Assembly: GCA_937858155.1 (NCBI GenBank)
Contig: CALLYM010000211.1
Span: 1 to 39,099 of the forward strand
Reading direction: 5' to 3'
DNA: 39,099 bases
Source: an uncultured Phycisphaerales bacterium
Lineage (GTDB): Bacteria; Planctomycetota; Phycisphaerae; Phycisphaerales; UBA1924
In this document: positions 10,210 to 30,427 of the stretch, one piece after another
How positions within the stretch are numbered: position 1 is the first letter of the stretch
Layout: each line of letters opens with the position of its first letter
Translations under genes and position numbers: made by a program
The notes under the pieces: generated by a model
What the model was told of the DNA's origin: nothing
Seen by the model: only the letters and a program-made list of their open reading frames with translations
Databases searched by the model: none

Positions 10210-11631
10210 CTAATAGGCCAGCGCGAGGCGCAGCCAGACGTCGTTGCGGAGGTAGTCGCAGGGCAGCGCATTCACCACGCCCGCGCCGCTCTGCAGACGG
10301 CAATTGGAGAAGTCCTTCGCGAGGTCATCCCCAATGCTGATGATCAAATAATCCTTGATCGGCAGGTCGATCCCGACGTGCAGCGCGAGGATGTTGTCGA
10401 CGCGGCCATTGAGCAGGCTGTCGGCGGTGAGGTTGCCCTCGTACTGGCGGCGCTCCCAGGCGAACTTGATATTGCCGACGAGGCGCCAGATCTGCTGGTT
10501 GTAATTGATATAGGCGGTGTCGAGCATGTAGTACGTGCCGATCAGCGCCTGTGAGAAATCGTGACGGAACCCGAGGGCGAGGATGGTCGTCGCGCCCGGG
10601 CGCCATTCGAGCTCGGCGAGCCCGATCGGCAGGTTGTACGAGGGGCTGTTCGGGTAGCTCGCGTTCGACTGCGTGAAGCTGTTGCCGTAGCCGACGTTCA
10701 GGTTGACCGAGAGCTTGGGCGTGATGAGGCCGATGAGGCCGGCCACGGCGCGGAACGGATACGCGGGCGGCGGCGTGTTCGGCGAAGTCCCGCCCCAGAC
10801 GTAGTTGTTCGTCGTCTCGGAGATGTTGATGTACACGCCCGTCTTCGGGAAGAAGTTCCAGCGGAGGCGGAGCTGGAAGTCGTTCCAGAGGAGGCTCTTC
10901 GCCGTGAGCACCGGCGAGCTCTCGTAGTAGCTGATGCCGAGCGTGTACTGCAGCGTGGCCTCGAGGCGCCCGCCGCCGGGACGGTAGCGGATGCGGAGGC
11001 CGAGCTGGTTCTGGTCATTGTTGATGTTCTGCGCCTGCGCGCCGACGAAGGCCGCGCGCACGAGCGCATACGGCGGCTCCGACGTGCGGACGAAGTTGTC
11101 GAAGAGATCGACGGTCCACTCGCCGAAGGGGAAGATCGAGAGGAGCAGGCCGCCCTCGGCGCCGATCGTGTAGTGCTGATTCAGCGTCGGGTCCGTCGAG
11201 AGCAGGAAGCGGAGCGGCAGGCCGAGGTGGAGGCGGAAGTCGAGCGCGTGGGGCTCGTTGCCGCCGCGCTGGACGGGGTTGGTGGCGATGTCCAGCGTCG
11301 GGCGGAACGAGAGATAGGCGGCGCCGCGCGCGGGATCGCAGCGGTTCGGATCCGTCGGCAGGCCGACGGCGCTGCAGCCCGTCGTGTCGCCCGACGAATA
11401 GAACACGTTGCTGTCGTAGCCGGCGCCGAGGGAGGCGCCGAGGTGCAGGACCAGCGAGTCGCTGATCTTGAAGCCCGGGCCTTCCGCGCGGGCGGGGCCG
11501 GCAGCGAGGAGCGAGGAGACGGCGGCAACGACGGCAGCCACGAAGCGGGCCCGCTTGCCGGGCGCCTTTTCGGACACATGGCCGGGTACGAGGATTCCCG
11601 GCCTGCCGTTCGGCTGTGAGGAGGAGGGCAC
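10210..11631 (-). CDS. Outer-membrane beta-barrel protein paired with the export lipoprotein
   Basis: A 473-residue protein with a signal peptide (basic KAPGKRARF, hydrophobic VAAVVAAVSSLLAA, cleavage near ARA-EG). Amphipathic beta strands with alternating aromatic residues follow (HLGASLGAGYDSNVFYSS, LQYTLGISYYESS, IYINISETTNNYVWGG, ALGFRHDFSQALIGTYYM), ending in LRLALAY, an outer-membrane barrel C-terminus with terminal aromatic. The start is uncertain: GTG at 11631 gives the longest frame, and an in-frame GTG at 11577 would give a tighter signal peptide. It is encoded immediately before the short Wza-type lipoprotein, so it may be the Wzp-like porin for polysaccharide passage. I infer this from topology and neighbour, not from a diagnostic motif. 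Confidence 0.75.
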   Translation of the reverse strand: MPSSSQPNGRPGILVPGHVSEKAPGKRARFVAAVVAAVSSLLAAGPARAEGPGFKISDSLVLHLGASLGAGYDSNVFYSSGDTTGCSAVGLPTDPNRCDPARGAAYLSFRPTLDIATNPVQRGGNEPHALDFRLHLGLPLRFLLSTDPTLNQHYTIGAEGGLLLSIFPFGEWTVDLFDNFVRTSEPPYALVRAAFVGAQAQNINNDQNQLGLRIRYRPGGGRLEATLQYTLGISYYESSPVLTAKSLLWNDFQLRLRWNFFPKTGVYINISETTNNYVWGGTSPNTPPPAYPFRAVAGLIGLITPKLSVNLNVGYGNSFTQSNASYPNSPSYNLPIGLAELEWRPGATTILALGFRHDFSQALIGTYYMLDTAYINYNQQIWRLVGNIKFAWERRQYEGNLTADSLLNGRVDNILALHVGIDLPIKDYLIISIGDDLAKDFSNCRLQSGAGVVNALPCDYLRNDVWLRLALAY

Positions 11632-28749: not shown

Positions 28750-30396
28750 TCACACCCGTGGCCCGCTCGTGCCCAGGTTCGCCAGCGCGTCCTTGTACTG
28801 CTCGCGCAGCGGCTCCACGACCTCCTTGATGAACCGCTCCGTCTGCTCCACGCTCCGCCCAACATACTTCATGGGGTCCAGCAGGCCGTCCCAGTCCAAC
28901 TCCTCCAGCAGCAGCCCGCCGCGCTTCGCAGACCAGAAGTTCTTGTCGCCCTTCAGGCGCTCCAGCAGGTCGTTGTCCAAACCTTCGTGCTTCACCCTGT
29001 GCCCCGCGGCCCGCGCGTGCACGCGAATCAACTCGTGGTAGTGCTGGCGGTCGCCGCCCAACTTCACGCAAGCCATCATGATGTTCTCGGTGGCCATGAA
29101 CGGCAACTCGGCCATGAGGTTCTTCCTGACCATGGCTTCGTGGATGATGAGGCCGCTCGCGACGTTGTGCATGAGGTCGAGCGCGCCGTCGAGGGCGAGG
29201 AAGGCCTCGGGGAGGGAGAGGCGGCGGTTGGAGGAATCATCGAGCGTGCGCTCGAGCCACTGGGTGGCGGCGGTGTCGTAGGCGTTGCCGACGAGGTTCA
29301 TGACAAACCGCGTGAGGCCGCAGATGCGCTCGCAGCGCATGGGGTTGCGCTTGTACGGCATCGCGCTGCTGCCAATCTGCTTGTCCTCGAAGGGCTCGTC
29401 GATCTCCTTGCGGTTGCAGAGGAGGCGGATGTCGGTGGCGATCTTGTGGAGGACGGAGGCGGTGGAGGCCAAATCAGCGAGGATAAAGGTGTCGATGACG
29501 CGGGGGTAGGTTTGGCCCGACAACTCGTGCACGAACAAACGGAAGTCTTGTCGATCGCGTGATGCGTGGAGGTACTTGAAGTCGGGCCATTCGTTCGTAA
29601 CGTTCTCAATGAAACCCAATTCCAGATCGTCTACTTTCGATGAGTCGCCACCGAGAAGTGACAAGTAGCTGGCTTGAGTACCCGTTGCGCCTCGAAGGCC
29701 TCGGATCGATCTGACAGCAGTTCGTGTGCCCATTAGCCGTTCCAAGCACAGAGAGAGGTCGTACGCCCAACCGGCGATTCTTCTGCCAACGGTGACGGGT
29801 TGCGCTGGTTGATAGTGGGTAAAGCCGAGTGTGGGCAGCATTTTCCACTCAATCGCTTGAACGCCGAGTGACTCTCCGGCTCGCCCGATTTTTGCGGCGA
29901 TCTGCTCGATCGCTTCTCGAATGATCATCAGGTCCGCGTTACACACCACATCCTGACTCGTCATCCCCAGATGGATGATCCCCTTCGCCTTCGGGCACGA
30001 GTCCCCCAGCGCATGCACATGGGCCATGACATCATGCCGCAGCTCGCGCTCGTACTTCTCCGCGAGCCTGATCTCCTCGTCCGCGATGCCACCCGGCCTG
30101 TTCACCACCGCGCGGAGTTCCTCGACCTGCTCCCTCGTGACCAGTTCTCTTGGTATTGGATGAGGTCTGGGTGGCACAGGCGTCCCGCCTGTGCTTGGGC
30201 CTCCACTTGCTTTCTGCTCAGGCGGGACGCCTGAGCCACACATACCACCAGCGGTCAGCTCATGCTGCGCCTCCGCCACCGCCAGCCAAATCCTCCGCCA
30301 CGTGTTGAACTTGTGCCGCGCCGACCACAGCCGCAGCATCTCCGGGCTGGCGTTCCGCGTGGCGAGGGGGCTCGTGTATGTGTCGTAGGCGGACAT
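28750..30396 (-). CDS. purB: Adenylosuccinate lyase with an in-frame palindromic-repeat insertion
   Basis: The 548-residue fumarase-superfamily enzyme catalyses two steps of purine synthesis (SAICAR and adenylosuccinate cleavage). Signature segments are IHLGMTSQDVVCNADLMIIR, TLGFTHYQPAQPVTVGRRIA, the flexible-loop motif GSSAMPYKRNPMRCERICGL and ERTLDDSSNRRLSLPEAFLA. ATG 30396 begins MSAYDTYTSPLATRNASPEM, the normal start. About residues 53-77 (CGSGVPPEQKASGG and TGGTPVPPR) are not native; they are the translation of a REPIN-like element at 30171-30239 that keeps the frame, in a loop after the first helices. The middle part, coded by about 29520-29940, has lower GC (about 55%) than the ends (63-65%), suggesting a mosaic allele. 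Confidence 0.93.
   Translation of the reverse strand: MSAYDTYTSPLATRNASPEMLRLWSARHKFNTWRRIWLAVAEAQHELTAGGMCGSGVPPEQKASGGPSTGGTPVPPRPHPIPRELVTREQVEELRAVVNRPGGIADEEIRLAEKYERELRHDVMAHVHALGDSCPKAKGIIHLGMTSQDVVCNADLMIIREAIEQIAAKIGRAGESLGVQAIEWKMLPTLGFTHYQPAQPVTVGRRIAGWAYDLSLCLERLMGTRTAVRSIRGLRGATGTQASYLSLLGGDSSKVDDLELGFIENVTNEWPDFKYLHASRDRQDFRLFVHELSGQTYPRVIDTFILADLASTASVLHKIATDIRLLCNRKEIDEPFEDKQIGSSAMPYKRNPMRCERICGLTRFVMNLVGNAYDTAATQWLERTLDDSSNRRLSLPEAFLALDGALDLMHNVASGLIIHEAMVRKNLMAELPFMATENIMMACVKLGGDRQHYHELIRVHARAAGHRVKHEGLDNDLLERLKGDKNFWSAKRGGLLLEELDWDGLLDPMKYVGRSVEQTERFIKEVVEPLREQYKDALANLGTSGPRV
30171..30239. repeat. REPIN-like inverted pair of 24-base palindromic units inside purB
   Basis: Two 24-base units, 30171-30194 and 30216-30239, lie in opposite orientation with 21 bases between. 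Each is itself a hairpin with 9-bp arms and a 3-base loop: GCACAGGCG-TCC-CGCCTGTGC at 30174-30194 and GCTCAGGCG-GGA-CGCCTGAGC at 30216-30236. After reverse-complementing the second, the units differ at only two positions, and those two are compensating changes that keep the stem paired. No further copy and no RAYT transposase gene was found in this window. Confidence 0.8.
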
Positions 30397-30427
30397 GCAG
30401 CCCAAGCGTAAGCGCGGGCCTGCGCAC

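Follow-up and report, generated by a model that had tools for sequence, protein, structure and literature searches.

How a palindromic mobile repeat comes to lie in frame inside a purine gene, and what could have placed it there, is the question raised by the purB locus of an uncultured Phycisphaerales bacterium. The window analysed is a contig stretch of 39,099 nucleotides from a metagenome-assembled genome (MAG) of 3.79 Mb, 82.8% complete, in 296 contigs (G000). An earlier note, made from the sequence alone, had described two 24-base inverted palindromic units within purB, differing by compensating stem changes, and had interpreted them as a REPIN-like element domesticated as a peptide. The host ORF scores 337 bits with the TIGR00928 purB profile (cut-off 326) and keeps the catalytic signature GSSAMPYKRNP; its essentiality in this bacterium is assumed. 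The features of the locus are as follows.

28750-30405, minus strand: purB, adenylosuccinate lyase, host gene, an ORF of 551 aa with TIGR00928, Lyase_1 and ADSL_C matches
30142-30255, minus strand: REP-derived loop, PurB residues 51-88, in place of an ancestral turn of 3-8 residues between two helices
30164-30246, no strand assigned: REPIN of 83 nt from repeat and fold analysis, with two 31-nt inverted arms and the GTGG tags outward
30171-30194, plus strand: REP unit 1, GTGG plus hairpin GCACAGGCG-TCC-CGCCTGTGC, read in purB as TGGTPVPP
30195-30215, no strand assigned: spacer of 21 nt separating both REP units
30216-30239, minus strand: REP unit 2, GTGG plus hairpin GCTCAGGCG-TCC-CGCCTGAGC, read in purB as CGSGVPPE

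Both units, GTGGCACAGGCGTCCCGCCTGTGC (unit 1, plus strand) and GTGGCTCAGGCGTCCCGCCTGAGC (unit 2, minus strand), form a perfect 9-bp stem with a 3-nt loop, and their stems differ only in one compensating A-T/T-A pair, as the earlier note had it. The location given there was also right, although the full inverted repeat extends slightly beyond the proposed span of 30166-30243: its arms (30164-30194 and 30216-30246) are 87% complementary and lie 21 nt apart. The folding energy of the REPIN strand is -30.7 kcal/mol compared to -13.9 in shuffles (z = -7.2). The purB frame continues through the region, which is translated as ...TAGGMCGSGVPPEQKASGGPSTGGTPVPPRPHPIPREL..., so that a Gly/Pro-rich loop is indeed encoded, with TGGTPVPP inside the loop and not at its end. 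The net gain at this turn is 35 residues (105 nt) with respect to the GLP of the same-genus genome G012, and 30 residues (90 nt) with respect to the TKEAASPL of G106, also of the same genus.

A 23-nt pattern, GTGGCWCAGGCGTCCCGCCTGWG, searched with up to three mismatches, produced 14 matches in the genome and none for the reversed control, demonstrating that the purB units are not a product of chance. The core 9-mer GCGTCCCGC alone was discarded as a probe, being uninformative (163 matches versus 218 for the reversed control). Fourteen units make a small population compared with typical REP populations, and 11 of them lie in frame within genes. Genic and intergenic copies were told apart by the surrounding frames and a GC-codon-position test, which performed well for most of this genome, misjudged purB (where homology decides) and did not separate the two kinds in the genome G006. 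The hosts are methionyl-tRNA synthetase (MetRS, two sites), NAD-dependent DNA ligase (LigA), PurB (two units), valyl-tRNA synthetase (ValRS, two units), deoxyribose-phosphate aldolase (DeoC) and an FGE-sulfatase-type protein, together with an ATPase-like 836-aa frame and a homogentisate-dioxygenase-like protein, both identified by reading only, with no NCBIfam match. The REP consensus has no stop codon in any of its six reading frames, and 10 of the 11 genic copies are translated in just two of these, as TGGTPVPP or GGTGVPPV-type peptides (binomial p ~1e-4, assuming independent copies, which the PurB pair and the pair flanking the transposase described below may not be). This bias is as expected if selection at the protein level filters insertions. 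The suspicion that similar Gly-Pro-Val-Pro peptides share this origin held for the GGTPVPP and GGTGVPPV peptides of this genome, which are REP-derived.

The only clean REPIN doublet of the genome is that of purB, the remaining copies being single. Since the two REPs of MetRS (contig C42) face inward around approximately 100 nt of native MetRS sequence, they are probably two separate single-REP insertions. In DeoC (contig C84) the REP peptide GMGGTGVAAV immediately precedes the strand that carries FIKTSTG, the motif of the Schiff-base lysine. An IS200-like transposase adjoins an apparently intergenic REP on contig C47, and contig C253 encodes a stand-alone RAYT-like protein of 230 aa without this REP. 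Outside this genome, a distant member of the class (G220) contains 97 copies of this REP core, some of them in local clusters (its contigs C8 and C10).

The history of the insertion was followed in the family, where PurB was detected in 113 of 120 sampled genomes and aligned for 87. Relatives have a turn of 3-8 residues at this site, reading HELGLPVTKEQ without insert or, in a second natural form, HELTKEAASPLVTKEQ. G012 and G106 have the short turn; in the third genome of the genus, G079, a single degenerate REP unit of the purB type is present. Inserts of at least 8 residues were found at this turn in 20 of the 87 aligned genomes, and in approximately 14 of these 20 the DNA of the insert is a strong hairpin. 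The repeats involved belong to different REP families: GTGGCACAGG, the type described here, in G000, G018 and G079; GTGGCCCGGCTGTCCCAGCCGG in G080; ACGAGCCCCTCGCGCAAGCGAGGGG or sequences close to it in G055, G116, G109, G033 and G084; a variant in G105; and GAGCCCCGAGCGCAAGCTCGGGG in G098, G103 and G100. These repeat types are themselves dispersed in their own host genomes, with 45 matches in G109, 31 in G116, 24 in G055, 17 in G084, 7 in G103, 5 in G105 and 4 in G098, and none for the controls.

On a quick PurB tree from which the loop was left out, and in which many forks are weak, the REP state needs 13 changes by parsimony, and sister genomes differ in the presence of the insert (G100 versus G067, G105 versus G006, G080 versus G107, and G109 versus G023 and G083). 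The short-turn relatives, the tree and these sister pairs rule out an ancestral loop; the insert is lineage-specific, and the peptide is not common to the PurB proteins of the class. No target-site duplication could be precisely defined, the sisters with and without insert being too divergent around the site. One PurB turn has been colonised repeatedly by unrelated REP families, which is new as far as the open literature shows.

At the position of the insert, human ADSL has a turn of four residues (57-60 in 5nx8). An AlphaFold2 model of PurB built with 40 sequences had a mean pLDDT of 88.9 and matched the ADSL fold in Foldseek; pLDDT dropped to approximately 50-71 at residues 51-90 and exceeded 94 in the flanking helices (29-51 and 91-101). 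The low-confidence segment lies between intact helices, so that the insert is a linker that is tolerated and probably disordered, in agreement with the proposal of a loop that accommodates the insertion; the catalytic motifs are preserved.

Could this be a normal variable loop in which GC-rich codons form palindromes by chance, with no mobile element involved? PurB does have other variable loops: at sites B and C the length differs widely within the family, reaching up to ~60 residues, and palindromes are almost absent. The hairpin excess is, however, concentrated at the REP-bearing turn, where z-scores range from about -2 to -8, against values near zero for most inserts at sites B and C. As the dispersed copies of the purB repeat had already refuted chance palindromes, and the repeats of other genomes at this turn belong to genome-wide families of 4-45 copies and sisters differ in its presence, we consider this explanation extremely improbable. 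The converse idea, that all variable PurB loops derive from REPs, was ruled out with sites B and C as internal control, their palindrome excess being almost nil. Domestication, in which the loop would be useful (partner binding, regulation of PurB) or the hairpin would act in the mRNA, could draw on the recurrence of REPs at this loop in some 14 of 87 genomes, which might reflect selection favouring a hairpin or flexible linker there. Against it, the insert is lineage-specific, unrelated in sequence between genomes and missing in most relatives, and the structure model shows no fold for it; domestication is thus unlikely. With no conservation in relatives, unrelated REPs at the same loop and no sign of a gained function, the domestication claimed in the earlier note is not supported, and the purB REPIN is regarded as a tolerated passenger.

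What allows RAYTs, transposases that are single-copy and long-lived, to persist, and what the host gains from them, is a standing question. A RAYT-type transposase was found in the genome, in frame inside valS.

C283:10857-11270: RAYT (HUH/Y1 transposase) on contig C283, with REPs at 10774 (plus) and 11340 (minus)

The flanking REPs form a GCAC/GCTC pair identical to that of purB, and no other Y1 transposase of the genome has this REP on either side of it as a pair. It sits in an open frame of 1436 codons, a single 1138-aa stretch of which exceeds both curated cut-offs, that of valS (666 > 612) and that of REP_Tyr_transpos NF047646 (84.2 > 80), and Pfam places tRNA-synt_1 on either side of Y1_Tnp. 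The insertion point falls between residues 363 and 379 of the T. thermophilus ValRS. In the MAG, which is 82.8% complete, no ValRS other than this ORF exceeds the curated cut-off of the TIGR00422 profile. That profile substituted for the ValRS segment of the ORF itself, which proved too insert-rich as a query (relatives in only 7 of 150 genomes). A Pfam scan of the nested ValRS, RdgB and Hsp70 ORFs detected host domains and Y1_Tnp only, with no intein or Hint domain. We propose that ValRS is made as a single chain bearing a transposase domain in one loop. The purB element thus has the GTRG-class tag and hairpin, the inverted pair with tags outward, the short spacer, the dispersed population and the cognate RAYT flanked by the same REP that characterize REPINs, in line with the REPIN-like nature proposed in the earlier note; it departs from them in location, extragenic sites being typical of REPs, if not strictly defining, and 11 of 14 units here being in frame within genes.

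Relatives of the valS-nested RAYT were present in 61 of 150 family genomes, and at least 66 of the 67 RAYT loci examined are in frame within housekeeping genes, a fraction that is not unbiased for RAYTs since a nested query was used as seed and favours nested relatives. The hosts of the 66, assigned by conserved motifs on both sides, are ValRS (28), RdgB (19), LeuRS (16, at two sites), Hsp70, MiaA and Kbl (one each), with Pfam backing examples of ValRS, RdgB (Ham1) and Hsp70, and MiaA and Kbl identified by motif reading; the remaining locus has no host assignment because of Ns. The first His of the HUH motif is preserved in 67 of 67 loci, the second in 66 of 67, and the catalytic Tyr (YxxxNP motif) in 65 of 66. 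Pairwise dN/dS values, for pairs with unsaturated dS, are mostly 0.1-0.3, which points to purifying selection on the nested RAYTs. The host gene follows the RAYT tree (10 changes versus 33 when shuffled), so that nests are mostly inherited, with a few jumps. No ATG, GTG or TTG exists within 25 codons upstream of the core in 35 of the 66 nested RAYTs, and a start preceded by a 4-mer resembling Shine-Dalgarno was seen in no more than four; translation fused with the host is therefore the simplest reading. Head-out GTRG hairpins flank the RAYTs of subfamily A in 29 of 40 cases upstream and 28 of 40 downstream, and those of subfamily B in 13 of 26 and 14 of 26, where approximately one or fewer was expected. 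On the other hand, the genome G006 holds 53 copies of the REP type of G000, yet no RAYT of the valS-nested clade, so REP copy number and presence of this clade are not simply coupled.

Across a class-wide sample, a profile of 16 RAYT sequences matched in 153 of 298 genomes. Nested RAYTs were found in other families within IleRS, PurH, ValRS (two sites), LeuRS, a DinG/YoaA-type helicase and a DUF1156 protein, as well as joined to the C-terminus of ThiE. The IleRS-nested copy exceeds the NF047646 cut-off (94.5 > 80), and the remaining scanned nested copies score 60-78, below it. Stand-alone RAYTs are present too, mostly with lower scores on the 16-sequence profile.

Our reading of the locus, to which we assign a probability of roughly 0.78, is that a REPIN occupies a permissive turn of PurB as a disordered loop, and that its likely mobiliser is the REP-flanked RAYT nested in valS. 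By analogy with known RAYT/REP systems, the RAYT would most likely recognise the GTRG tag of single-stranded REP hairpins, here candidate GTGGCACAGGCG hairpins, cut REP-tagged single-stranded units at them and join these into single-stranded target DNA. Being GC-rich and mostly free of stops, repeats in the right phase would lengthen a protein instead of breaking its frame, and in-frame insertions in loops of essential proteins would survive selection. Such insertions should be hard to delete, only precise loss being harmless and imprecise loss killing the host. Units bearing a RAYT in ValRS, LeuRS, IleRS, PurH or RdgB would thereby gain expression and protection, the chimeric enzymes presumably being active, and RAYT-less pairs such as the purB REPIN would be passengers.

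A different origin of the purB repeat has to be weighed, namely its placement by another RAYT, by recombination or by gene conversion, the valS-nested RAYT being a functionless relic. The stand-alone RAYT-like gene of 230 aa and the IS200-like gene near a REP offer candidates within the genome, and the many REPs of G006 exist without this RAYT; but the RAYT in valS is alone in having this REP pair around it, its catalytic residues are intact and nested RAYTs are under purifying selection, so that we regard such an origin as doubtful, if a more serious competitor than domestication. As many of the genomes are fragmented MAGs, the long RAYT-containing frames might also be suspected of being assembly or frame artefacts. 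This is barely credible, given that the identical valS site recurs in independent genera and that the reading frame is conserved and stop-free, with dN/dS well below 1. Moreover, assembly error is unlikely in G067, a genome in one contig whose RAYT-nested valS is its only ValRS over the cut-off. Beyond mobilisation of the purB REPIN by the valS-nested RAYT, we somewhat favour a broader proposal: Phycisphaerae RAYTs may have a nested lifestyle, in which essential enzymes (ValRS, LeuRS, IleRS, PurH, RdgB and others) contain the REP-RAYT-REP unit as one of their domains, in frame. The unit would have no stop codon and mostly no recognisable start of its own, and it would be maintained by purifying selection, inherited with the host gene and now and then move into another essential gene, with REPINs that lack a RAYT settling in loops of other genes such as purB. 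This would amount to intein-like persistence without splicing.

Nesting in indispensable genes, if true, would explain the persistence of RAYTs, imprecise loss being lethal to the host. Aminoacyl-tRNA synthetases are reported to be essential in the planctomycete Planctopirus limnophila (PMC10632474). Nested RAYTs and REPs would also represent dozens of natural experiments on which loops of aminoacyl-tRNA synthetases and purine enzymes can take up a domain of 150 residues or a disordered linker of 30. They carry a warning as well, since RAYT-host fusions may be thrown out or wrongly named in surveys and by annotation pipelines: a 2018 survey of HuH endonucleases set aside TnpA proteins of unexpected length, taking them for fusions or errors (PMC6006769), which may be why nested RAYTs went unnoticed. 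The literature searched, mainly open-access with few subscription journals or preprints, contained nothing relevant on transposases nested in tRNA synthetases, and complete RAYTs in frame inside essential genes are new as far as the open literature shows.

Palindromic elements inside protein genes of Rickettsia were reportedly first described by Ogata and colleagues. The Rickettsia elements RPE-1, RPE-4 and RPE-6 resemble the present case in that palindromes inserted in frame become translated segments of housekeeping proteins, but they have been placed in the CGTC class (PMC3733652), their tag and sequence differing from the GTGG repeats found here, and no transposase nested in essential genes has been reported for them. 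With the REPIN and GTAG-type REP systems and their RAYTs (Bertels and Rainey 2011, PMC3116915; Di Nocera 2013, PMC3733652) our elements share the GTRG tag with a short hairpin, the inverted head-out pairs and a cognate RAYT flanked by the same REPs. A GTGG tag variant is on record for the GTAG-20 repeats of Opitutus terrae, and so are REPs inside ORFs, many in DNA-repair genes and some in tRNA-synthetase genes (PMC3733652); the purB REPIN alone is a further case of such intragenic REPs. In contrast to known REPIN systems, the population is small (14 units) and mostly intragenic instead of extragenic, and the RAYT gene itself lies in frame within an essential gene. Inteins with homing endonucleases are likewise in-frame mobile passengers with a nuclease inside essential conserved genes; here, unlike inteins, there is no Hint or intein domain and so no known splicing, and the passenger is a HUH/Y1 transposase that would stay in its loop. 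Finally, REPs have been recorded within tnpA-REP genes (PMC6006769), in frame and in flexible parts of the protein as in PurB, but there a REP lies within the transposase, whereas here the whole REP-transposase-REP unit lies within another gene.
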